A model generated the notes under the pieces. The model worked only from the letters and a program-made list of their open reading frames with translations, did no database searches and had not been told where the DNA came from. The position numbers and the translations under genes are program-made. Below are positions 21,422 through 41,827 of a stretch of DNA of 42,051 nt, piece by piece. Each line of letters begins with the position of its first letter. Positions within the stretch are counted from its first letter, which is position 1. The stretch comes from Candidatus Sedimenticola endophacoides (GTDB lineage Bacteria > Pseudomonadota > Gammaproteobacteria > Chromatiales > Chromatiaceae): positions 1 through 42,051 of the forward strand of contig PQCP01000110.1 in assembly GCA_003062205.1 (NCBI GenBank), given 5' to 3'.

Positions 21422-21606
21422 CAAGAGTGTCGCTACCTCGTGAAAGATTTTGGGACATCCCAGTCCCCAAAATCGACTCGCCAACGCGACAGCCGTTACT
21501 GCCCCGACCGTCCTGCGCTCATCACGACTCCGTCCCGCACATTGCAGCAAAGCTGCTCGTGCGCAACTCCGTCATGATGACCACAATGACTCTACGGCGT
21601 GTCGAA
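21422..21606 (+). mobile_element. Element E, partial copy (nt 1-183 plus AA)
   Basis: The sequence matches element nt 1-183, ending GTGTCG at 21604. Two extra bases AA follow, then a full copy starts at 21607. In the intact element the next bases would be GATGCG, and GATG also follows the element in napA and the GGDEF gene. That suggests a second element inserted into this one and the tail was then lost. Confidence 0.9.
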
Positions 21607-21906
21607 CAAGAGTGTCGCTACCTCGTGAAAGATTTTGGGACATCCCAGTCCCCAAAATCGACTCGCCAACGCGACAGCCGTTACTGCCCCGACCGTCCTG
21701 CGCTCATCACGACTCCGTCCCGCACATTGCAGCAAAGCTGCTCGTGCGCAACTCCGTCATGATGACCACAATGACTCTACGGCGTGTCGGATGCGCTATT
21801 TGTATGCCCTACGTCACTCCCTATCGGTCGTAACTGCGGCCATACAACCGCGCCTACGCCTATCGGGGACTAACCGCCTTCGCTTCGCTCTCCATGGCGG
21901 TTAGCG
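21607..21906 (+). mobile_element. 300-bp element E, copy 3 (complete, tandem to partial copy)
   Basis: A complete copy runs from CAAGAG to GTTAGCG with the same hairpins as copy 2. Its right edge joins AAAGATATC of the membrane-protein gene at a codon boundary. With the partial copy it forms a direct tandem, a substrate for recombination. Confidence 0.95.
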
Positions 21907-23947: not shown

Positions 23948-24775
23948 TCAGGATGACAACGCCTTGACGTGTATGGGTCCGAACGATTCCGCCTGCACCA
24001 GCTCGATCAGCGCCCCCTTGAGCAGTTCGAGAATCGCCAGGAAGGTGACCACCACTCCCAGGCGTCCCTCCCCGGCGGTGAACAGGGCGGTGAACTCCGT
24101 GAAGCCTTCGCAGTTGATCCGCTCCAGAACCTGGGACATCTTTTCACGCACCGACAGCGCCTCCAGTTGGATCTGGTGCCGGGTGAACATGTCGGCCCGG
24201 CGCAGCACCTCATTGAGGGCGAACATCAGCTCCTTCATCTCCACATCGGGCAGAGGCTTTTCGATCTGATGGCGCGGGGCCTCGGCCTGGGCCTGAAACA
24301 GGTCGCGCCCGATGCGCGGCAGGGCGTCGATATCCTCGGCCGCCTGCTTGTAGCGCTCGTACTCCTGGAGACGGCGGATCAGCTCGGCGCGCGGATCGTC
24401 CCCCTCCTCCTCGGTCTCATCCTGGCGCGGCAGCAGCATACGGGACTTGATCTCCGCCAGCATCGCCGCCATCACCAGATACTCGGCCGCCAGTTCCAGG
24501 CGCAGCTCCTTCATCAGCTCCACGTACTCCATGTACTGGGCGGTGATCTGGGCCAGCGGGATATCCAGGATATCGAGGTTCTGGCGCTTGATCAGGTAGA
24601 GCAGCAGGTCGAGGGGCCCCTCGAATGCGTCCAGGAACACCTCCAGGGCGTCCGGCGGAATATAGAGGTCCTTGGGCAGGGTGGTCCAGGGCTGGCCCTG
24701 CACCATGGCAAAGGGCATCTCCTCCTGCTCGGGATGGGGCTGGTTGAGTATTCCCTGTTGCTCTGTATCGCTCAT
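23948..24775 (-). CDS. scpA: Segregation and condensation protein A
   Basis: The 275-residue kleisin-like subunit begins, after a variable N-terminus, with FEGPLDLLLYLIKRQNLDILDIPLAQITAQY, diagnostic for ScpA. EYLVMAAMLAEIKSRMLLP follows, and a C-terminal winged-helix domain (FLAILELLKGALIELVQ) contacts the SMC head. ATG 24775 gives a reasonable start; the longer frame overlaps the trpS end. It is followed by scpB after 1 bp and lies 45 bp downstream of trpS. Confidence 0.95.
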   Translation of the reverse strand: MSDTEQQGILNQPHPEQEEMPFAMVQGQPWTTLPKDLYIPPDALEVFLDAFEGPLDLLLYLIKRQNLDILDIPLAQITAQYMEYVELMKELRLELAAEYLVMAAMLAEIKSRMLLPRQDETEEEGDDPRAELIRRLQEYERYKQAAEDIDALPRIGRDLFQAQAEAPRHQIEKPLPDVEMKELMFALNEVLRRADMFTRHQIQLEALSVREKMSQVLERINCEGFTEFTALFTAGEGRLGVVVTFLAILELLKGALIELVQAESFGPIHVKALSS

Positions 24776-24820: not shown

Positions 24821-26038
24821 TCATCGATAGAGCAGCGACATGGCGTGGCGCACCTCGGCCATGGTCTCCTGAGCCACGTCCCGGGCCGCCTCGGTACCCT
24901 CTGCGATGATGTTGCGCACCAGCTCGGGCTGGGCCTCGAACTCCCGCGCCCGCTCCTGGATCGGCGCCAATTCACGCAACACCGCGTCGATCACCGGTTG
25001 CTTGCACTCGATGCAGCCGATCCCGGCGCTCTTGCAGCCGTTCTGCACCCACTCCCTGACATCGTCACCGGAGTAGACCTCGTGAAACTGCCACACCGGG
25101 CAGCGCGCCGGGTCACCGGGGTCGTTACGGCGCACCCGGTTGGTGTCGGTCGGCATCCGCCGCAGGGCGTTCTCCACCACCTCCGGATCGTCGCGCAGGG
25201 CGATGGTGTTGCCATAGGATTTGGACATTTTCTGTCCGTCCAGCCCCGGCATCCTGGATGCCTTGGTCAACAGCGGCTGGGGTTCGGGAAGGATGATGCG
25301 CCCACCGCCCTCGAGATAGCCGAACAGCCGCTCGCGGTCGTTGACGGTGATGTTCTGCTGGGTTTCGAGCAGGGCGCGCGCCGCCTCCAGCGCCTCGCTG
25401 TCACCCTGCTCCTGGTAGGCCTTGCGGTAGCGGGTGTAGAGCTTGGCGCTCTTCTTGCCCATCTTTTTGACCGCGGCCTCGGCCATCTCCTCGAAGTTCG
25501 CCTCACGCCCATAGATATGGTTGAAACGGCGGGCCACCTCGCGGGTCAACTCCACGTGGGCCACCTGGTCCTCACCGACCGGCACCAGCCCCGCCTTGTA
25601 GATCAGGATATCGGCCGATTGCAGCAGCGGGTAGCCGAGAAACCCATAAGTGGCCAGATCCTTCTCCTTCAACTTCTCCTGCTGATCCTTGTAGCTCGGC
25701 ACCCTCTCCAGCCAGCCAAGGGGGGTGATCATCGACAACAGCAGGTGCAGTTCCGCGTGTTCCGGCACCTGTGACTGGATGAAGACCCGCGACTCACCAT
25801 GATTGACCCCGGCGGCCAACCAGTCGATGACCATATCCCAGACACTGCCGGGAATGATGCTCGGGTCATCGTAGTGTGTGGTCAGCGCATGCCAGTCGGC
25901 AACGAAAAAATAGCAGTCGTACTCGTGCTGCAGTTCGACCCAGTTTTTCAGTACCCCGTGGTAGTGCCCCAGATGCAGGCGCCCGGTGGGACGCATGCCG
26001 GACAGGACGCGGGCGTGCTGTGTTGCAACGGAGTTCAA
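24821..26038 (-). CDS. trpS: Tryptophanyl-tRNA synthetase
   Basis: The 405-residue class I synthetase carries the HIGH-type motif RPTGRLHLGHYHGV and the KMSKS loop GLDGQKMSKSYG. It is the longer TrpS form, with an inserted C-terminal region containing CIECKQPV and a cysteine pair, versus about 334 residues in E. coli. It charges tRNA-Trp. Together with downstream scpA-scpB-rluB it forms a conserved proteobacterial cluster. ATG 26038 is the family start. Confidence 0.96.
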   Translation of the reverse strand: MNSVATQHARVLSGMRPTGRLHLGHYHGVLKNWVELQHEYDCYFFVADWHALTTHYDDPSIIPGSVWDMVIDWLAAGVNHGESRVFIQSQVPEHAELHLLLSMITPLGWLERVPSYKDQQEKLKEKDLATYGFLGYPLLQSADILIYKAGLVPVGEDQVAHVELTREVARRFNHIYGREANFEEMAEAAVKKMGKKSAKLYTRYRKAYQEQGDSEALEAARALLETQQNITVNDRERLFGYLEGGGRIILPEPQPLLTKASRMPGLDGQKMSKSYGNTIALRDDPEVVENALRRMPTDTNRVRRNDPGDPARCPVWQFHEVYSGDDVREWVQNGCKSAGIGCIECKQPVIDAVLRELAPIQERAREFEAQPELVRNIIAEGTEAARDVAQETMAEVRHAMSLLYR

Positions 26039-30214: not shown

Positions 30215-31453
30215 TTAGAGAGCCTCCGCCACCCCCGAATCGACCCTGATGCAATTGCGCCCGGACTCCTTGGCCATAACCAGCGCCGCGTCGGCGCGCC
30301 CGATCAGCGACTGGATACTGCCTCGCCCCGGCGCATAGGCAGTGACCCCGAAACTGGCCGTCAGGTCGATCACCGCACCAATCGGCTCATGGGAGATTCG
30401 ATGCTGCAGGCGCCGGGCCAGGTGCACGGTGTCATCCAGGGCCGTTTCGGTCGCCAGCACCAAGAGTGTCGCTACCTCGTGAAAGATTTTGGGACATCCC
30501 AGTCCCCAAAATCGACTCGCCAACGCGACAGCCGTTACTGCCCCGACCGTCCTGCGCTCATCACGACTCCGTCCCGCACATTGCAGCAAAGCTGCTCGTG
30601 CGCAACTCCGTCATGATGACCACAATGACTCTACGGCGTGTCGGATGCGCTATTTGTATGCCCTACGTCACTCCCTATCGGTCGTAACTGCGGCCATACA
30701 ACCGCGCCTACGCCTATCGGGGACTAACCGCCTTCGCTTCGCTCTCCATGGCGGTTAGCGGATGAACTCCTCCCCGGCCCAACGTGCTGCCAAGTCACTC
30801 TCTCGCAGCGTATTGCGAATCCGCCGGGCCACCTCCGTCAGCACCTCGTCACCAACATCGTAGCCATGCACCGCGTTGACTCGCTTGAAGTGATCCAGAT
30901 CGAGCACCAGCAGGGAACAGTTGCCACCATAGCGGTCTACTCGGCTCAAACACTGGCCGATCTGCTCGATGAAGCGGCGTCGGTTATACAGGCCGGTCAG
31001 TGTATCGACGCTACTCAGACGCCGCAGTTCCTGGCTACGTTCGACCAGGTCCTTCTCCAGATTGAACAGGCGGATCTGACTTATCACCCGCGCGGCGGTC
31101 TCCGCCCCACGATAGGGCCGAACCAGATAATCACCGCAACCCGAGGTGAATACCCGCTCCACATCCACCTCGTGCCGCGATCCAAACGCCAGCAACAGCG
31201 GTATCCCCCCAAGCCTCACGTCGGTCTTGATTTCCCGGCACAAAGCGTAGGGATCCACCCCCGCCCTGGTATTGAGCAGCAACAGACCGGGGAGCCGTTG
31301 CTCTGGAAACCGGCGCAGAGCGCGCAGATCCTCCACCCACCGCACACAATAGCCAAACGGCCGCAGCAGAACTCCGAGTGCATCGCGGTCATCATCCGAC
31401 CCGCCGAGCATAACCAGGTCACGCCGGCCACCCTCTGTCACCACATCATTCAT
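30215..31453 (-). pseudogene. Pseudo-receiver-GGDEF diguanylate cyclase gene split by element E
   Basis: Joined across the element, the gene encodes 312 residues. Residues 5-125 form a receiver-like domain. The phosphoacceptor Asp is replaced by Asn61 (LLLLNTRAG) and the switch Lys by Arg (YLVRPY), so it is unlikely to be phosphorylated. A GGDEF domain follows (DTLTGLYNRRRF to the end) with active-site loop AGEEF, an accepted variant. The element enters right after AGEEFI and before VLATETAL, inside the cyclase domain and exactly between codons. The first part then stops at the TAA in the second codon of the inverted element. ATG 31453 was chosen over longer frames. Confidence 0.88.
30461..30760 (+). 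mobile_element. 300-bp element E, copy 4, inside GGDEF gene
   Basis: A complete copy is antisense to the host gene. Left flank GCCAGCAC and right flank GATGAACTC rejoin without loss or gain to give the codons ATC GTG, so the insertion made no target duplication. Confidence 0.97.
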
Positions 31454-32951: not shown

Positions 32952-33536
32952 TCAGCCTTCGTTCATCTCATCCGCGGCCGGGTCGTAACCCGCCGGCAGC
33001 GAGTGGGCGATGCCCTTGTGGCAATCGATGCAGGTCTTCTGCAGGGGCTTGCCGTCCACCGCGTCCCAATAGTGGGGATCGTGGGCATCGGCGCTGCGCG
33101 AGTCCTGCTTGTCGAGGTTCATGGATTCGAACTTGTGGCAGTTTCGGCATTCGCGCGAGTTGGTCTTCTTCATCGCCCGCCACACGTTCTGAGCCAGTTC
33201 CAGACGCTTCTCCTCGAACTTCTCGGGCGTATCCACCGTACCCAACATCTTGTGATAGAGCTCATTGGTGGCCTGGATCTTGCGCACCACCTTGTGTATC
33301 CACTCCCGCGGGACATGGCAGTCGGGGCAGGTGGCGCGGACACCGGTGCGGTTGGTAAAGTGCACGGTCTCTTTCAACTCCTGATACACCGTGGTCTCCA
33401 TCTCATGACACGAGATGCAGAAGGTTTCACTGTTGGTCGCCTCCATGGCGGTATTGAATCCTCCCCAGAGGATAATGCCGAGGATGATGCCGACCATCAG
33501 GATCTTGATCACCTTGCTTTTTGCGCCATTGTTCAT
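32952..33536 (-). CDS. napC: Tetraheme cytochrome c NapC
   Basis: The 194-residue NapC/NirT quinol dehydrogenase is anchored by one N-terminal helix (about residues 12-30). It carries four heme-binding sites: CISCH, CPDCH, CRNCH and CIDCH. It takes electrons from quinol and passes them to NapB. ATG 33536 gives the proper short cytoplasmic N-terminus (MNNGAKSK). It is the last gene of napFDAGHBC, the order found in many gammaproteobacteria. Confidence 0.97.
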   Translation of the reverse strand: MNNGAKSKVIKILMVGIILGIILWGGFNTAMEATNSETFCISCHEMETTVYQELKETVHFTNRTGVRATCPDCHVPREWIHKVVRKIQATNELYHKMLGTVDTPEKFEEKRLELAQNVWRAMKKTNSRECRNCHKFESMNLDKQDSRSADAHDPHYWDAVDGKPLQKTCIDCHKGIAHSLPAGYDPAADEMNEG

Positions 33537-33685
33537 AACTGTTCTCATCTGACTCTGTGCAGGCACCCGCTGGTGCCGTTCTATGTTGTATCGCCGAATG
33601 GGCGATCTGTCCGATAGACCACATCCGGTCCAGGCCGGGACCGGCGACCGCCCCCGGCCGGGGGGGCGGTCGCCGGTGTCCGTGG

Positions 33686-34114
33686 TTACTTCGCACCGGC
33701 GAAGACGTTCTCCACCAGGGGGGCCGCGTCAAGCTGCAGCGCATGGCACTGGTTGCAGAAGTAGCGGCGGCTGGAGACCGTCTCCAGGACCTTTCCGTCG
33801 CGCGTCACGTAATGGCTGTCGCCCGCCTTGGGCGCCTTCTTCTCCTTGTAGGTCTTCTCCGAGTGGCACTTCATGCAGGTGTTGACCCGTAGGCTGATCT
33901 CCTCCTTTTCGATGGTGTGCGGGATCATCGGGGGCTGGATCTTATAGCTGCGATCGAAGCTGCCTTTGACGATCTCCTGCTTGCGCTTGTCGGGCGCCTT
34001 TGAGGGGTCCTGAATCTCCTGGCCGCCGCGCAGGAATTCCACGCCCGAGAAGGCGGTGCCGGAGCACAGCAGCGCCACCAGGGCAACCATGAGGGTAAGT
34101 GTCGATTTTTTCAT
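33686..34114 (-). CDS. napB: Diheme cytochrome c NapB
   Basis: The 142-residue precursor has a Sec signal peptide (MKKSTLTLMVALVALLCSG, cleaved near TAFS) and two heme sites, CMKCH and CNQCH. The family segment RSYKIQPPMIPHTIEKEEISL precedes the first heme. It is the small subunit of periplasmic nitrate reductase and feeds electrons to NapA. ATG 34114 is preferred because GGAG lies just upstream. The napH C-terminus ends 55 bp before it. Confidence 0.96.
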   Translation of the reverse strand: MKKSTLTLMVALVALLCSGTAFSGVEFLRGGQEIQDPSKAPDKRKQEIVKGSFDRSYKIQPPMIPHTIEKEEISLRVNTCMKCHSEKTYKEKKAPKAGDSHYVTRDGKVLETVSSRRYFCNQCHALQLDAAPLVENVFAGAK

Positions 34115-34169
34115 CTTGCTCTCCATCAAACTCACTGTTTGAAAATTGATACGCCTGAAAACCATCCGG

Positions 34170-35102
34170 CTAGGCGCCCGTACGCTGACGGGCACCCGCC
34201 CCGGTTACCGATGTTGTTTTCACCTGGTCAATGGCATTACGGCTGCCGAATTGGAAGACATCCACCGCACATACATCGATGCAGCGGCCACAGTTGGTAC
34301 AGTTGGAAGAGAGGATCACCGGCCCGACACCCGTTTCTGCGCCCTTCAGCACGGGCTTGATGATCCGTGACTCGGGGCAGACTGCGTAGCAGTCCATGCA
34401 GTCGTCGCACGCCTCACGGTTTGCGGCTACCACACGCAGCTGGCTGCGGCTTCCCAGCAGGGAGTAAAAGGCCCCCACCGGACACAGCCTGCCGCACCAG
34501 CCATCCCTGCTCACCAGCAGATCGAACAGGAACACGCCAAGCACCAGCACCCAGGCCATGCCCAGCCCGAAGACGATGCCGCGAAACAGCATCGAGACCG
34601 GATTGACCAACTCCCATACGATGGAGCCCGTCACCAGGGGCAGGACCAGGGTGAGGCCCAGCATCCAGTAGCGGGTAACGCGCGGGAGCTGCGACGGCGT
34701 GCTGATGCCGAGCTTGCGGCGCAGCCAGGCGGCGGCATCGGTGACCATGTTGACCGGGCATACCCAGGAGCAGTACACCCGACCTCCCACCAACAGGTAG
34801 AAGGCGATCACCAGGATGACGCCGATGATGGCGTCGCGGTGGGGTTCCACCCCGGCGAGCACCGCCTGCAGCAGCACATGGGGGTCGGTCAGGGGCAGCA
34901 CGTCGAGCGTGACGCTCGACGCCAGATTGCCCTTGACCAGCCATGTCTCACGCTCCAGGCGGTCCACCAGGTAGGGACTCACCACGAACAGCGCCAGCAG
35001 ACTCAGCTGACTGACACGACGGAGGATCAACCACTTGTGGGCCTTGAACCAACCCTTGGCGGCAACGGCTTCAGCGCCTACTGCTGTCTGCTTGGCCATC
35101 AT
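34170..35102 (-). CDS. napH: NapH quinol dehydrogenase membrane component
   Basis: The 310-residue protein has about four membrane helices, the two CXXXCP motifs (CSWVCPV, CGRLCPV), and C-terminal 4Fe-4S clusters (CDDCMDCYAVCPE, CTNCGRCIDVC). NapH with NapG forms an alternative quinol-oxidising route to periplasmic nitrate reductase. ATG 35102 overlaps the napG stop (ATGA) and has GGAGG at good spacing, showing coupling. Confidence 0.96.
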   Translation of the reverse strand: MMAKQTAVGAEAVAAKGWFKAHKWLILRRVSQLSLLALFVVSPYLVDRLERETWLVKGNLASSVTLDVLPLTDPHVLLQAVLAGVEPHRDAIIGVILVIAFYLLVGGRVYCSWVCPVNMVTDAAAWLRRKLGISTPSQLPRVTRYWMLGLTLVLPLVTGSIVWELVNPVSMLFRGIVFGLGMAWVLVLGVFLFDLLVSRDGWCGRLCPVGAFYSLLGSRSQLRVVAANREACDDCMDCYAVCPESRIIKPVLKGAETGVGPVILSSNCTNCGRCIDVCAVDVFQFGSRNAIDQVKTTSVTGAGARQRTGA

Positions 35103-35974
35103 TTATCCTCCAGTCCACGGTTGAGGGTATCGAGCGGGTTGGTCGAGAAGGGTACCTCTCCGGCACCCTGCCCCTGTTCGATAATCAATCCCTCGCCCTG
35201 CAGCTCATAACGCACACCCTCGGGGAGGTTGTAGCGATGCTCCAGGTCCGGTGTCACCAGTGATTTCCCTGCCTTCTCTTTCTCTTTCCAGCCGAGTCGA
35301 TAGTGTCCGCCAAGCTCCCCCTTCGCCAGATGGTTGGGGAAGATCTTGATCGCCGCCTCTTCGAGGATGCACGCCTTCTCACAGAGTCCGCACCCGGTAC
35401 AGGCCTCGGAATGCACCACCGGAATGAACAGTGCGTGCTTGCCTGAGCGGTCATTGTGCTGCAACTCCAGGGTAATGGCGTCACCCCGCACGGGACAGAC
35501 GTTGAAGCAGACTTCACAGCGCAGGCCGAGGAAGGCGATGCAGGTCTCCTGGTCCACCACCACCGCCAGGCCCATGCGGGCTTCCCGGATATCGGTGAGG
35601 TTGTGGTCCAGGGCGTTGGTCGGGCAGACGGGCACGCAGGGGATGTCCTCGCACATCTCGCAGGGGCCGGTCCGGGCGGTGAAATACGGCGTGCCGGTCG
35701 GCACGTCATCGCCCAGTTGCCCCAGCTTGAGGATGTCGTAGGGACAGTCCCTGACGCACAACCCGCAGCGAATGCAGGCGCCGAGGAAATCCTCCTCCGG
35801 GATCGCTCCCGGCGGTCGAATCGCCATCGGCGGCAGGGAGTCGGCCTGTCTCGCATAAAACCCGAGCCCCATCCCCACCAGGCCCACGCCGCAGACGGTC
35901 TTGAGCGTATTGCCCAAAAACTGCCTGCGGGAGAGGCCCCGCTCCTGACCATTACCTGAATCTGACTTCTTCAT
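35099..35974 (-). CDS. napG: NapG periplasmic ferredoxin-type protein
   Basis: The 291-residue protein starts with a twin-arginine signal (SRRQFLG, residues 15-21, followed by a hydrophobic stretch) and carries four 4Fe-4S clusters. These are CIRCGLCVRDCP, CEMCEDIPCVPVCP, CEVCFNVCP and CTGCGLCEKAC. It partners with NapH in electron transfer to NapA/NapB. It is followed by napH with a 4-bp overlap and lies 72 bp downstream of napA. Confidence 0.96.
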   Translation of the reverse strand: MKKSDSGNGQERGLSRRQFLGNTLKTVCGVGLVGMGLGFYARQADSLPPMAIRPPGAIPEEDFLGACIRCGLCVRDCPYDILKLGQLGDDVPTGTPYFTARTGPCEMCEDIPCVPVCPTNALDHNLTDIREARMGLAVVVDQETCIAFLGLRCEVCFNVCPVRGDAITLELQHNDRSGKHALFIPVVHSEACTGCGLCEKACILEEAAIKIFPNHLAKGELGGHYRLGWKEKEKAGKSLVTPDLEHRYNLPEGVRYELQGEGLIIEQGQGAGEVPFSTNPLDTLNRGLEDK

Positions 35975-36046: not shown

Positions 36047-38914
36047 CTATGCCTTCACCACCTTGACCGCGCACTTCTTGTAATCCGTCTCCTTGGAGAG
36101 CGGATCGGTCTGGTCGAGGGTCAGTTTATTGACCAGGCGGCTGGCATCGAACCAGGGGATGAACACCAACCCCTCGGGAGGACGGTTACGTCCCCGGGTC
36201 TCCACCTCGGCCACCACTTCTCCACGGCGGGTCTGCAGCTTGGCCATGGAGCCCTGGCGCAGACGCCGTTTCTTGGCGTCGTTGGGGTGCATGAACACCA
36301 CCGCGTCCGGCACGGCCCGGTGCAACTCCTCGACACGCTGGGTCATGGAGCCCGAGTGCCAGTGCTCCAGCACACGGCCGGTGCAGAGCCACAGGTCGTA
36401 CTCTTTGTCCGGGACCTCGGCGGCCGGCTCGAAGGGCGCGGAGATGATGTTGGCCTTGCCGTCGGGCTTGCCGTAGAACATCATTCCGGCGCCGGCCGGT
36501 ACGTGGGGGTCATAGCCTTCGCGGAAGCGCCACAGCGTCTCCTTGCCGTTGACCACCGGCCAGCGCAAGAGTGTCGCTACCTCGTGAAAGATTTTGGGAC
36601 ATCCCAGTCCCCAAAATCGACTCGCCAACGCGACAGCCGTTACTGCCCCGACCGTCCTGCGCTCATCACGACTCCGTCCCGCACATTGCAGCAAAGCTGC
36701 TCGTGCGCAACTCCGTCATGATGACCACAATGACTCTACGGCGTGTCGGATGCGCTATTTGTATGCCCTACGTCACTCCCTATCGGTCGTAACTTCGGCC
36801 ATACAACCGCGCCTACGCCTATCGGGGACTAACCGCCTTCGCTTCGCTCTCCATGGCGGTTAGCGGATGCCGCGCACCTTGTGGTAGGTGTCGAAATCGG
36901 CCATCTCGTGCCCTTTCTTGGGGATATTCTCCGCCGAGTTGAACAGGCGGTATTCCTCGAACATGCCCTTCTGCGGATAGAAGCCGAAGTACTCCATCTC
37001 GTCGTTGCCGTATACGTGGCCCTCGGAGTCGGTCACCTCCTGTTTCGGGAACTTGTCGACCTGTCCGTTGGCGTAGAGCACATCGAACAGGGTCTTGCCC
37101 TGGTACTCGGGCGCCGCCGCGATCAGGTCCGCGGGCCACACATCCTCCACCTTGACGTACTTGGCGAACTCCATGATCTGCCACAGGTCGGAGCGGGCCT
37201 CGCCCGGCGCCTGCACCTGCTGACGCCAGAACTGGGTACGCCGCTCGGCGTTACCGTAGGCACCCTCCTTCTCAGCCCACATGGCGGTGGGCAGAATCAG
37301 ATCGGCGGCCTGGGCCGATACGGTCGGATAGGGGTCGGAGACGACCACGAAGTTCTCCGCCTTGCGCCAGCCCGGAAGGGACTCGTCGTTGAGGTTGGCG
37401 GCGGCCTGCATGTTGTTGTTGCACATGACCCAGAAGCAGTTCATCACACCGTCCTTGAGGGCGCGGTGCATGGCCACGGCATGGATCAGCGTGGCCCCCA
37501 TCGGCTTGCCGCTGATGTCGGTCTGATCGGCGTCTCCCGCCTTGCCCTTGGCCCTGGGGATGGTCCCGGCGGGCAGTTTCCACACCTTCTCGGTGAACGC
37601 GCAGTGGGCATCTTTGGCCACCACCAGATCCGCCGGAAGACGATGGGTGAAGGTGCCGACCTCGCGCGCGGTACCGCAGGCGGAGGGCTGGCCGGTCAGC
37701 GAGAATGGGCTGTTGCCCGGCTCGGAGATCTTGCCCATCAGCAGATGGATGTTATAGACCAGGCCGTTGATCCAGACCCCGCGGGTGTGCTGGTTCATAC
37801 CCATGGTCCAGAACGAGGTGACCTTCTTGTTGGGGTCGGCATAGATCTTGGCCAGCCGCTCCAGCTGATCCGCCGGTACGCCGGACATCTCGCTCGCCTT
37901 CTCCACGGTGTAGGGCGCGACCTCCTTGGCGTACTCCTCGAACGAGATCTTGGTAAGCTTGCCACTGTTGCGGTTCTTGGCCGCCTTCTCGCGCGGGTCG
38001 TTGTCACGCAGACCGTAGCCGATGTCGGTGGCGGTCTTGGTGAAGTTGACGTGCTTGTCGATAAAGGACTGGTTGTAGGCCTTGTTCTGGATGATGTAGT
38101 TGGCGATGTAGTTGGCGATGGCCAGATCCGACTGGGGGGTGAAGACCATGCCGTTGTCCGCCAGCTCAAAGCAGCGGTGCTCGTAGGTGGAGAGCACATG
38201 CACCTCGCACCCCTCCTTGGTGAGGCGGGTGTCGGTGAGACGCGACCAGAGGATCGGGTGCATCTCGGCCATGTTGGCGCCCCACAGGACGAAGGCGTCG
38301 GCGTGCTCCAGGTCATCGTAGCAACCCATGGGCTCGTCGATGCCGAAACCACGGATGAAGGCGGCCACCGCCGAGGCCATGCAGTGACGGGCGTTGGGCT
38401 CCAAGCTGTTGGAGCGGAAGCCGGCCTTGATCAGTTTGGAGGCGGCGTAGCCCTCCCAGACGGTCCACTGACCGGAGCCGAACATGCCCATACCCTTCGG
38501 ACCCTTCTTGCGCGCAGCCACGAACTTCTCGGCCATGGTCTTGAACGCCTCGTCCCAGGATACCGGCTCGAAATTGCCGTTCTTGTCGTACTGGCCGCCC
38601 TTCTTGCGCAGCAGCGGCTGGGTGAGGCGATCCTTGCCATACATGATCTTGGGCAGGAAATAGCCCTTGATGCAGTTCAGGCCCTTGTTCACCGGGGCGT
38701 CCGGGTCACCCTGACTGGCCACCATGCGTCCGTCCTTGACGCCGACCAGAACCGAGCAGCCGGTGCCGCAGAAACGGCAGGCAATCTTGTCCCAGCGGAT
38801 GCCATCGGCGTCCGCCGCGGAGGCCACCTGCACCCCCGGAAGGGTGACGCCCGCCGCCGCGGCCGCCGCCGCAATCGCATTACTCTTGATAAAGTCACGC
38901 CTGGTTTGTTTCAC
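36047..38914 (-). pseudogene. napA: Periplasmic nitrate reductase catalytic subunit, split by element E
   Basis: The joined product would be 855 residues, normal for NapA. The N-terminus has a Tat signal ([10 protein letters not shown]). The 4Fe-4S cluster is CRFCGTGC with a distant fourth Cys (GLNCIKG), and the molybdenum ligand Cys sits in NARHCMASA. The C-terminal domain ([13 protein letters not shown] onward) lies beyond the element. GTG 38914 is the start, with AGGAGG 7 bp upstream, overlapping the napD stop. The element sits between codons ATC and CGC of GIRW. As written, the first 681 codons end at a TAA inside the element, losing about 173 C-terminal residues that contact the molybdopterin cofactor. 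Everything else looks intact, so the insertion is recent. Confidence 0.95.
36566..36865 (+). mobile_element. 300-bp element E, copy 5, inside napA
   Basis: A complete copy is antisense to napA. Flanks CCAGCG and GATGCC rejoin exactly. It carries the only base change I noticed among copies: T at 36795 (element nt 230) where the others have G. Confidence 0.97.
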
Positions 38915-39174
38915 TGGAGTACCTCCTCGTTCGAAACTTCGTCTTCCCCACAAAAGTGATAAATCATGACGGTGCTGACCACACCCTGGAGGTCACCCAC
39001 CCTGCCGAGGGTGTCGGCCAGCACATCGTCCTCGCTACCTTCCACCGTGACGATCAACTTGCCCTCCTCGACGCCCCCATGGACCTCGGCCCCCTCGAAC
39101 GCCTCGATGGCCTGGCGCACCCGCGCCGCCTTCTCGGGGCGGGCATGTACGATGGCACTGCAAATGTTTCTCAT
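38911..39174 (-). CDS. napD: NapD chaperone
   Basis: The 87-residue ferredoxin-fold protein binds the NapA twin-arginine signal peptide during maturation. Family features are the start [30 protein letters not shown] and [12 protein letters not shown] 39174 overlaps the napF stop, and the stop overlaps the napA GTG (4 bp each), a tightly coupled napF-napD-napA arrangement. Confidence 0.94.
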
Positions 39175-39689
39175 GCTGTCATCTCCCCCCATTCGTCGGT
39201 TAATGCTGAAATCTCCACCGCCCGCACCGGGCAGACGGCGTGGCACGCACCACAGCCGGTGCAGGCCTGTTGATCGAGTTCCGGGATCGCCCTCCCGCCG
39301 GTCTGCAACCGGAAACGGATGGCGCGCGGCGCGCAGACCTCACCGCAGCAGCGGCAGGTCACGGCGTTTACGGCCAGGCAGCTACCGCCGATGCGCGCGA
39401 CAAGCGCCCAGGGGGGACGCTCCCCGTCGCCCCGGGCAAGCACGCCCGGTTCGCAAACGGCACTGCATTCGCCGCAGAAGTCGCAGCCGCCACGGGAGAA
39501 ATCGATCACCGGGAAACCGCCGCCGCCCCTGACCAGGAGCTGGTCGGGGCAGACCCCGATGCAGTTGTCGCAACGGGTGCAGCGGTCGGTAAACTCCGTT
39601 TCGGGAAGGGCCCAGGGCGGGCGCGGCAATGGCGCCCCGCCACCGAACTGCCCCCTGAGAAACCGGGCCCTGTTGATTGAAGTCGTCAC
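39171..39689 (-). CDS. napF: NapF ferredoxin-type protein
   Basis: The roughly 172-residue cytoplasmic protein has three 4Fe-4S motifs: CTRCDNCIGVCPD, CDFCGECSAVCEP and CTGCGACHAVCP. NapF helps assemble the iron-sulfur centre of NapA. The start is uncertain. The AGGAG directly abuts an ATG at 39698, leaving no spacing. GTG 39689 (9 bp away) or TTG 39692 (6 bp) fit better and give the expected TTSINRARFLRGQF N-terminus. It is the first gene of the nap operon. Confidence 0.9.
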   Translation of the reverse strand: MTTSINRARFLRGQFGGGAPLPRPPWALPETEFTDRCTRCDNCIGVCPDQLLVRGGGGFPVIDFSRGGCDFCGECSAVCEPGVLARGDGERPPWALVARIGGSCLAVNAVTCRCCGEVCAPRAIRFRLQTGGRAIPELDQQACTGCGACHAVCPVRAVEISALTDEWGEMTA

Positions 39690-39717
39690 CAAGTACATCT
39701 CCTGACTATGGTTGGGG

Positions 39718-39723
39718 ATTATC
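39718..39723 (-). promoter_or_regulatory. napF promoter -10 hexamer
   Basis: GATAAT on the minus strand, 29 bp upstream of the GTG start. Transcription would begin near 39711, which puts the FNR-like box exactly at the class II position. Confidence 0.6.
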
Positions 39724-39745
39724 CCCCCACAGACCGGGAGAGTTA

Positions 39746-39759
39746 TTGATATCAACCAA
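39746..39759 (-). promoter_or_regulatory. FNR-type binding site upstream of napF
   Basis: TTGATATCAACCAA (plus strand) matches the FNR consensus TTGAT-N4-ATCAA at nine of ten positions. Its centre is 41.5 bp upstream of the start predicted from the -10 hexamer, the spacing of FNR-activated promoters. It supports oxygen-limited expression of nap. Confidence 0.7.
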
Positions 39760-39820
39760 AAACTCACGACCTAACTAATTGATTAAATTGAATAATAGTA
39801 GGTAGTGCCGACCCCATAAC

Positions 39821-39850
39821 TACCCCGGGGGTGGTACCTATTTGTGGGTA
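39821..39850 (-). promoter_or_regulatory. Two adjacent NarP/NarL-like 7-2-7 palindromes
   Basis: TACCCCG-GG-GGTGGTA (39821-39836) and TACCTAT-TT-GTGGGTA (39835-39850) resemble the inverted heptamers (TACYNMT) recognised by nitrate-response regulators. The second has one mismatch, the first one per half. They are centred near -118 and -132 from the predicted start, further upstream than in E. coli, so the function is tentative. Confidence 0.4.
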
Positions 39851-40143
39851 GTCCGATATTCAGGCCTGCCCCGCCGGATGTGCGCCGAACGGCTATCTGC
39901 CTGAGTTTATTGGCGGGTATGGATCGGAATGCGCAACGCCCGCCCAGGAATGGGCGGGCGGAGGGACGGCCGTTCAGGCGAAGTGCAACTTCTTCGGCTC
40001 TTCGGGATGCGCCTCATAGACCACCGGCTTGCCCAGTTCGTCGAAGGCGAAGCGGTGAAACACCCGGTAGCCGTTTTGGTCGAGCACGCGCAGTTCGTCC
40101 TTTTCATAGCTGTCGGCCAGCACCGCCCCATAATGGGCGCCAT

Positions 40144-40147
40144 AACG
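40144..40147. repeat. Target-site duplication AACG (left)
   Basis: AACG directly abuts the IS right end TGTCCTGG at 40148 and is repeated at 41828-41831 beyond the IS left end. Four base pairs is normal for IS3-family insertion. Confidence 0.8.
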
Positions 40148-40187
40148 TGTCCTGGTTCAGCCTGAACCGGAGTTTTCCGGTTCACAT

Positions 40188-40583
40188 TTAAGAGACAACC
40201 TCACGGCTGCCCGTGGGCAGATGTACCGATTGTAACTGCCTATTTTCTGCACGTCGGTTACGTGCTTCTGCCAGCTTCTGTTCCCGGTTTGCCAAGATCT
40301 CAGGGGCCTTGCCTGCCAGCTTGTCGGCAGGGGTGATATAGCCGATAGCACTGTGTAGGCGAGACTGATTATAGTCATCCACGTAAGCCGCCACCAAGCG
40401 CTGGGCCTCTTCGAAATTCAGCGGTGCCTTCGGGCGAATGCATTCCGATTTCAGGCTCTTGTGCCACCGTTCCAGCTTTCCGTTGCTCTGCGGATAGTAA
40501 GGTGAGGTTCGTACATGATCCATACCCTTGACCCGAATGAACGCCTTGAAGTCCTTGGCGACAAACTGGGGACCGTTGTCCGA
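40188..40583 (-). pseudogene. IS3-family transposase OrfB, C-terminal fragment A
   Basis: The fragment starts at SDNGPQFV, which contains the second catalytic Asp of the DDE triad. It continues through YYPQSNGKLERWHKSLKSE, with the catalytic Glu, and DDYNQSRLHSAIGYITP to REVVS. The N-terminal part is missing; element E abuts the first codon (TCG) at a codon boundary. Confidence 0.88.
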
Positions 40584-40883
40584 CAAGAGTGTCGCTACCT
40601 CGTGAAAGATTTTGGGACATCCCAGTCCCCAAAATCGACTCGCCAACGCGACAGCCGTTACTGCCCCGACCGTCCTGCGCTCATCACGACTCCGTCCCGC
40701 ACATTGCAGCAAAGCTGCTCGTGCGCAACTCCGTCATGATGACCACAATGACTCTACGGCGTGTCGGATGCGCTATTTGTATGCCCTACGTCACTCCCTA
40801 TCGGTCGTAACTGCGGCCATACAACCGCGCCTACGCCTATCGGGGACTAACCGCCTTCGCTTCGCTCTCCATGGCGGTTAGCG
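40584..40883 (+). mobile_element. 300-bp element E, copy 6, abutting OrfB fragment A
   Basis: A complete copy. Its left edge adjoins the transposase (GTCCGA) and its right edge adjoins non-IS DNA (GAAGATGGG), so its two flanks were not contiguous before. Confidence 0.95.
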
Positions 40884-40965
40884 GAAGATGGGGACTGAAA
40901 TGGCAATCTTGAATTGTAAAACCCTGCGAGTAGTTGTGATCGGTTCCGCAGCCGCTTTTTTCCTG
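40884..40965. other. 82-bp orphan segment
   Basis: This lies between element copy 6 and a second IS right end. It does not match the IS or the host gene here. It could be the flank of another IS copy brought in by recombination or misassembly. Confidence 0.6.
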
Positions 40966-41005
40966 TGTCCTGGTTCAGCCTGAACCGGAGTTTTCCGGTT
41001 CACAT

Positions 41006-41212
41006 TTAAGAGACAACCTCACGGCTGCCCGTGGGCAGATGTACCGATTGTAACTGCCTATTTTCTGCACGTCGGTTACGTGCTTCTGCCAGCTTCTGTT
41101 CCCGGTTTGCCAAGATCTCAGGGGCCTTGCCTGCCAGCTTGTCGGCAGGGGTGATATAGCCGATAGCACTGTGTAGGCGAGACTGATTATAGTCATCCAC
41201 GTAAGCCGCCAC
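41006..41212 (-). pseudogene. IS3-family transposase OrfB, C-terminal fragment B
   Basis: It repeats the last 69 codons of fragment A (VAAYVDDYNQSRLHSAIGY to REVVS). It begins at a codon boundary (GTG) directly after element copy 7, with which it reads in the same direction. Confidence 0.88.
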
Positions 41213-41512
41213 CGCTAACCGCCATGGAGAGCGAAGCGAAGGCGGTTAGTCCCCGATAGGCGTAGGCGCGGTTGTATGGCCGCAGTTACGACCGATAGGG
41301 AGTGACGTAGGGCATACAAATAGCGCATCCGACACGCCGTAGAGTCATTGTGGTCATCATGACGGAGTTGCGCACGAGCAGCTTTGCTGCAATGTGCGGG
41401 ACGGAGTCGTGATGAGCGCAGGACGGTCGGGGCAGTAACGGCTGTCGCGTTGGCGAGTCGATTTTGGGGACTGGGATGTCCCAAAATCTTTCACGAGGTA
41501 GCGACACTCTTG
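41213..41512 (-). mobile_element. 300-bp element E, copy 7 (inverted), joining IS fragments
   Basis: A complete copy on the minus strand. Its 5' end adjoins orfA (AAGGAC) and its 3' end adjoins orfB fragment B (GTGGCG). Both junctions fall between codons, but the transposase region normally lying between them is missing. This fits recombination between two element copies in one IS. Confidence 0.95.
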
Positions 41513-41761
41513 GTCCTTCTTTTTCAGCTTCGCTTCCAGTTCAGCAAAGCGACGTTGCTCAGCCTTTACCCTACCCCTGTCTTCCTTCTCGAAAGCGGCC
41601 GCGCCATTCTCAAAGAACTCTTTTTGCCAACGGTAGAACGTGTTGGGGTTCAAACCGTGGGCATCACACACGTCTGATACCGGCTGCCCCTCAACCAGGT
41701 GCTGCTTCAGGATTGCCACCTTTTCCCGGGGCGTGAAATTTCGTCGGGTTCGTTTGCTCAT
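41513..41761 (-). pseudogene. IS3-family transposase OrfA, N-terminal fragment
   Basis: The 83-codon fragment begins MSKRTRRNFTPREKVAIL and carries a helix-turn-helix (VSDVCDAHGLNPNTFYRWQKEF) and the start of the leucine-zipper region (RRFAELEAKLKKKD), where element copy 7 interrupts. A ribosome site (GGAGG) precedes ATG 41761. Confidence 0.9.
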
Positions 41762-41827
41762 ATTTTCCTCCAGAAGTTACCACTAACTCAAATTGAGGAA
41801 AACTCCAATTCCGACTGAAGCGGGACA

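Follow-up and report, generated by a model that had tools for sequence, protein, structure and literature searches.

A napFDAGHBC promoter with predicted class II FNR and upstream NarL-type sites whose nitrate control has probably been lost through element insertions

Introduction

The closest described counterparts of the promoter analysed here are those of Escherichia coli. At E. coli napF, FNR is located near -64; nirB and nrfA have NarL/NarP 7-2-7 sites near -70 to -75, upstream of a class II FNR site at about -41.5, and the narG promoter is also of the class II FNR type. Outside the enterobacteria, Stewart and Bledsoe are said to have reported in 2005 on FNR and NarP control of the napF control region of Haemophilus influenzae. 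The available part of PMC4549865 places the NarL/P site of E. coli napF at -40 to -49 and the distal NarL regions of E. coli narG at -89 and -195, the latter without 7-2-7 sites. Heptamer repeats positioned upstream of FNR sites are described in the accessible portion of PMC12285233. In the excerpted text of PMC8199190, nitrate/nitrite genes (for example nap, nar) are reported in the neighbourhood of nearly all of 13 representative kinases of the NarX/NarQ type, one of them from a Riftia endosymbiont, so that the nap-sensor linkage described below is not new as such.

Here we analyse the nap promoter in a 42,051-nt stretch of DNA from Candidatus Sedimenticola endophacoides (the window), for which an earlier note, made from the sequence alone, had proposed a class II FNR box and double NarP-like palindromes. 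We consider it probable that the promoter of the napFDAGHBC operon combines class II FNR control with upstream NarL-type sites, and that its nitrate control has been lost through insertions of a 300-bp element; the earlier note included neither the split of napA nor those of the sensor and narL genes. No account of this nap layout was found in the open-licence literature, among the matches listed.

Results

The nap operon and its interrupted napA

The earlier note's reading of the region as a nap promoter is borne out by NCBIfam models, which identify an operon in the order napF-D-A-G-H-B-C directly downstream, with the following coordinates in the window:

39171..39692, minus strand: napF, starting at TTG 39692 or GTG 39689 (NCBIfam napF equivalog, 116 bits, cut-off 102)
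38911..39174, minus strand: napD, by operon position (NapD chaperone model 47 bits, under the cut-off of 113)
36866..38914, minus strand: 5' part of napA, above the NapA cut-off
36566..36865, plus strand: 300-bp repeat element splitting napA, antisense to it
36047..36565, minus strand: 3' part of napA
35099..35974, minus strand: napG, above the model cut-off
34170..35102, minus strand: napH, above the model cut-off
33686..34195, minus strand: napB (single model matched, 100 bits, under the cut-off of 230)
32952..33566, minus strand: napC/nirT-family cytochrome (268 bits, under the cut-off of 311)

The insertion into napA is clean, since the two parts of the gene match profile positions 1-658 and 659-830. 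As assembled, the operon would be unable to make intact NapA unless the population also contains uninterrupted napA copies. The best-ranked of the 80 NapA relatives listed were those of Ca. Thiodiazotropha, the Solemya velum gill symbiont, Lamellibrachia symbionts, Sedimenticola and other gammaproteobacteria. A search of the genome with the narG model gave no match above its cut-off; the best one, at 49.6 bits against a cut-off of 1084, lies inside a long molybdoenzyme-like frame on contig C172.

The upstream neighbour of napF, apparently encoded on the minus strand, consists of two fragments flanking an insertion, with no Pfam match. Positions 40147-41800 of the window hold IS3-like transposase pieces with 249-bp identical repeats, which we take from their reading frame to belong to the IS3 family; these pieces are interrupted by two inverted-orientation copies of the 300-bp element, apparently inside a gene upstream of napF.

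Promoter sites in the window

The region upstream of napF presents the following candidate sites:

39850..39835, minus strand: distal 7-2-7 palindrome, NarL-type, TACCCACAAATAGGTA, 13/14, centre at -131.5
39836..39821, minus strand: proximal overlapping 7-2-7 palindrome TACCACCCCCGGGGTA, 11/14 (weak), centre at -117.5
39759..39746, minus strand: FNR box TTGGTTGATATCAA, read as TTGGT-TGAT-ATCAA, 9/10 to TTGAT-N4-ATCAA
39723..39718, minus strand: -10-like hexamer GATAAT, 22 nt downstream of the FNR box
39699..39703, minus strand: AGGAG, likely napF ribosome-binding site, from its sequence

The transcription start predicted from GATAAT is 39711, which sets the centre of the FNR box at -41.5, in agreement with the earlier note, where the box had been given in its plus-strand form (TTGAT-N4-ACCAA) at the same distance. 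The window has three FNR matches of at least 9/10, this box included, where 0.44 would be expected. Furthermore, when the 298-nt upstream region was shuffled 20000 times by mononucleotide, no shuffle reproduced an FNR box of at least 9/10 followed, after 22 nt, by a hexamer of at least 5/6. A generic sigma-70 scan detected no -35/-10 pair within positions 39000-40500, as expected if FNR substitutes for the -35 element.

The two palindromes, scored against the NarL/NarP 7-2-7 consensus TACYYMT-N2-AKRRGTA, overlap by two bases and lie 90 bp (distal) and 76 bp (proximal) upstream of the FNR centre. Apart from the distal palindrome, the 42-kb window has no match of at least 13/14, 0.04 being expected. 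In contrast, the proximal palindrome is at chance level, with 10 matches of up to 3 mismatches in the window against 11.9 expected, and it coincides in part with a hairpin that scores as terminator-like on the plus strand. What speaks for the proximal palindrome is its position alone. The double 7-2-7 pair of the earlier note stands in its positions, and its distal member is the one that convinces individually.

Spacing between FNR box and -10 hexamer across nap loci

Upstream regions of nap operons were taken from 80 named loci and from whole genomes of relatives. The spacing between FNR box and -10 hexamer was analysed in 38 distinct non-enterobacterial loci (window included) with an FNR box of at least 9/10 located 50-145 nt before the first nap gene, leaving out L149-L178 (enterobacteria), L109 (too short) and L009 (identical in sequence to L119). 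The mean -10 score at 22 nt was +2.19, and the runner-up among offsets 10-39 scored -2.12; in 2000 shuffles, the best score over offsets 15-29 was -1.57. The A2/T6 signature of the hexamer was present at 22 nt in 22 of the 38 loci, and in at most five at every other offset between 10 and 39. This single peak is the pattern expected of class II FNR promoters and the window conforms to it, lending strong support to the class II assignment proposed in the earlier note.

These results also bear on the possibility that napF transcription starts elsewhere and that the -41.5 geometry is coincidental. The start at 39711 is itself a predicted position, as such a reading would have it, but the recurrence of the 22-nt spacing across nap loci and its failure to arise in any of the shuffles make this alternative very improbable. 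The conservation that the earlier note had called for is present for this spacing and, as described below, for palindromes in 11 loci; it is incomplete for the box itself, since 14 of the 59 loci with usable upstream sequence lack an FNR box of at least 8/10 at 45-145 nt before the gene.

Several loci carry more than one FNR-type box. Pairs of boxes (at least 9/10) spaced exactly 39 bp apart occur in L010, L015, L122, L139, L142 and L143, and these six nap promoters are without a same-strand linked narL; the second box is possibly an FNR/DNR site replacing the NarL sites. Pairs were also seen at 47 bp (L023), 50 bp (L127) and 72 bp (L014), and some at more than 170 bp. Another FNR-like box in the window, TTCAATTTAATCAA (8/10), precedes the main box by 33 bp; this differs from the 39-bp spacing of the pairs in relatives, and we set it aside.

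Palindromes and the linked sensor and regulator

Several relatives encode a NarX/NarQ-type sensor and a response regulator directly upstream of napF, and in all nine close-linked loci measured the distance from the regulator match to napF is 209-292 nt. The association between palindromes and this regulator was assessed on 50 non-enterobacterial loci, from which L148 (beginning inside napA) and L109, L132 and L138 (too short) were removed, together with 10 further loci having less than 1300 nt of upstream sequence; among these 10, narL and a 13/14 site occur together in L128 and are both absent from the remaining nine. Of the 36 loci left, 8 have narL close upstream, and 7 of these carry a 7-2-7 match of at least 12/14 no more than 300 bp from nap, as does 1 of the 28 without it (Fisher p = 7e-6; shuffle rate 3.4% per region), counts that overstate independence because the loci are phylogenetically non-independent (L099 and L100, among others, are close relatives). 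The lone positive among the 28, L119 (Sedimenticola BM503), has its own narL about 3.8 kb upstream, and carries an additional palindrome far upstream, at -365. The Solemya velum symbiont (L104) has a linked regulator, yet its best site reaches 11/14 and the expected range contains no FNR box of at least 8/10. No 12/14 site was found in five Chromatiaceae-type loci (L141, L142, L143, L145 and L147), despite a nearby narX-like gene on the opposite strand.

Scanning 15-139 nt upstream of the FNR box yielded 13 palindromes of at least 12/14 in 11 loci (window included), located 48-96 bp from the box, centre to centre. In seven relatives this distance is 84-86 bp, versus 76 and 90 bp in the window.

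The earlier note had termed the palindromes NarP-like. The nap-linked regulators of the two relatives scored (G011 and G012), however, pass the NarL model (313 and 312 bits, cut-off 250) and fail the NarP model (207 and 223 bits, cut-off 343), and the label is better replaced by NarL-type. Judged by these two linked proteins, the regulator that goes with the palindromes is of the NarL and not of the NarP type. The segment tvkvhvkh, presumably the DNA-reading helix, is common to the G011 regulator and E. coli NarL (1a04).

It might be argued that the palindromes are not NarL sites at all, the distal one being a chance match and the GC-rich proximal one a hairpin. The chance-level score of the proximal palindrome and the terminator-like hairpin on the plus strand are in line with this view, but the upstream gene is apparently on the minus strand, opposite to the one on which the hairpin scored, the distal palindrome has no equal in the 42 kb, and equivalent sites occupy the same zone in relatives with a linked narL. 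We therefore regard it as quite unlikely and retain the NarL-type reading.

Candidate regulators in this genome

Fnr is encoded intact on contig C21 (302 bits, model cut-off 228) and has candidate cluster cysteines. The motif by itself does not separate FNR from other activators of the CRP/FNR family, and the box at -41.5 could be read by one of these, such as a DNR-type NO sensor. The genome contains six more CRP/FNR-type HTH matches, five of them above cut-off, and DNR motifs are described as similar to the FNR box in the available part of PMC1274295. With a clear Fnr in the genome, and with both position and sequence fitting FNR class II, this reading nevertheless appears unlikely, and we favour Fnr as the protein that would occupy the box.

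The closest match to the nap-linked NarL is found in pieces on contig C86: two pieces with 76% and 66% identity to G011 residues 31-136 and 120-214, plus an N-terminal piece. The nap-type sensor gene on this contig is interrupted once by the 300-bp element, and narL is interrupted twice, each time by a composite insertion made of an element, a 118-bp segment and another element:

Contig C86 (L179), 23961-24678: composite insertion in narL
Contig C86 (L179), 24997-25714: composite insertion in narL

A gap of about 118 bp between two element copies was found on contig C78 too. Since C86 extends 611 bp past narL without reaching nap, the sensor-narL pair is not directly upstream of nap in this genome. 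No intact pair of cognate nap-type sensor and regulator is encoded in it. An intact NarL-like paralogue lies on contig C80, beside a kinase-like frame; it has 44-47% identity to the linked regulators and scores 224 bits with the NarL model, under the cut-off of 250. This paralogue is a possible substitute reader of the palindromes. With napA, the nap-type sensor and narL all split, the nitrate arm of the promoter may now be dead.

The 300-bp element

Copies of the element occur in the window at the following positions:

452-751: element copy
21422-21906: element copy
30461-30760: element copy
36566-36865: element copy, in napA
40584-40883: element copy
41213-41512: element copy
1-124: cut copy

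The element (CAAGAGTGTCGCTACC...GGCGGTTAGCG) is 300 bp long and has hairpin-like ends. Its 42-bp left end has 374 exact occurrences in this genome and none in the 54 other genomes searched; if each of the 374 marks a full copy, the element would make up about 112 kb, close to 4% of the genome. Among 75 distinct full copies examined, 69 match a window copy base for base over 300 bp, in a count for which exact ends were required and which therefore favours identical copies; because of this identity, the spread of the element looks recent. At base +4 of the right flank, 72 of the 75 copies have G, and no fixed target duplication was apparent, with 10 copies sharing 2 bp (about 4.7 expected), one sharing 3 and one sharing 4. 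Queries of the open-licence literature on mobile elements and symbionts returned no match.

A self-splicing intron was considered and set aside, the sole Rfam match at gathering score in the window being a tRNA, and RNA splicing of the element is unlikely given its orientation, antisense in napA and sense in the sensor gene. A preference of the element for open genes was considered as well: a stop-free stretch of at least 250 codons crosses the empty site at 32 of 67 sites, compared to 41 of 134 frame-shifted controls, a control too weak in this GC-rich genome to carry much weight.

In a genome of the same genus (G001), the core of the element occurs 17 times. There (L024, contig C59), napA breaks off near residue 230 and runs, through a short stretch with the element's core hairpin, into a late part of napH (profile positions 180-283), as if by deletion between two element copies, in a draft of 84% completeness.

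These insertions raise the possibility that the promoter is already a relic, conferring no benefit with napA, sensor and regulator split, and that its sites survive since the insertions are recent. Such a reading would account for the presence of 300-bp copies in all three genes, and is in line with the apparently recent spread of the element, the lack of narG matches above cut-off and the truncated napA of the same-genus genome. That genome, however, is an incomplete draft, the frames of napF, napD, napG, napH, napB and napC are open, and recent insertions would have left little time for decay, so that intact sites do not tell a relic from an active promoter. We hold the relic reading to be a real but rather doubtful possibility, and prefer that of a promoter still open to FNR.

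Discussion

Taken together, these data suggest that the promoter most likely is, or until recently was, activated by FNR without oxygen and boosted by NarL with nitrate. The FNR arm of this interpretation draws on sequence, spacing and conservation, and the NarL arm on one strong site and on co-occurrence in relatives. In the mechanism that we propose, FNR at -41.5 would act as a class II activator in the absence of oxygen, its contact with RNA polymerase substituting for a -35 element, and a phosphorylated NarL-type regulator, bound as dimers to one or two palindromes (-117.5/-131.5), would add a nitrate response. The genes for such a regulator and its NarX/NarQ-type sensor lie just upstream of nap in several relatives, with the sites in the narL-napF gap; here, the pair is located on another contig, and in the assembly the 300-bp element interrupts napA and the sensor gene once each and narL twice. 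Because the element split those genes, nitrate control via the sensor-narL pair is probably lost, and FNR control is probably still possible. In this genome, the promoter has probably been recently orphaned from its nitrate regulator, a loss of function that we infer from the interruptions present in the assembly.

A broader reading, on whose truth we are close to evenly divided and lean slightly against, is that the nap operons of the Sedimenticolaceae have a dedicated switch, composed of a NarX/Q-type sensor and narL, encoded upstream of napF, and palindromes that precede a class II FNR box by 48-96 bp; that some lineages without a same-strand pair use instead a second FNR-type box exactly 39 bp further upstream; and that a burst of the element in this species disabled the switch together with its target enzyme. 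If so, this would be a natural promoter that keeps its activator sites without its dedicated nitrate regulator. The split napA, sensor and narL genes also suggest that nitrate respiration is being lost in the genus via one recent burst of the element. Beyond this genome, our analysis would extend FNR/NarL control of the periplasmic nitrate reductase to sulfur-oxidiser lineages, among them Solemya, lucinid and tubeworm symbionts, in an order of sites unlike that of E. coli napF, and it provides a rule for annotating nap starts in these lineages: an FNR box, 22 nt and a -10 hexamer.

The promoter is well supported and of a known type, with a different order of sites that several relatives have in common. 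Like E. coli napF, the promoter combines FNR with NarL/NarP 7-2-7 sites for the control of napF. It differs, as far as the available part of the E. coli account goes, in that FNR is proximal (-41.5) and the palindromes are distal (-117.5/-131.5), reversing the order, and the earlier note was right that order and spacing depart from those of E. coli napF. The E. coli-type layout, with a NarP site proximal and FNR about 20 bp further upstream, is not found here, the spacing being 76/90 bp. Across 30 enterobacterial loci, the best-scoring pair in the E. coli order was spaced at 20 bp in 3, 29 bp in 5 and 26 bp in 1, in a site scan that detects enterobacterial FNR boxes poorly, many of them scoring below 8/10. 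The napF promoter of H. influenzae might share features with this one.

With nirB and nrfA the promoter shares class II FNR at about -41.5 and upstream 7-2-7 sites, which lie here 45-60 bp further up and in front of a different operon. With narG it shares class II FNR and distal NarL regions, the difference being a 7-2-7 site at -131.5 here and none in narG, according to the available part of its description. The layout resembles those of E. coli nirB, nrfA and narG more closely than that of E. coli napF.
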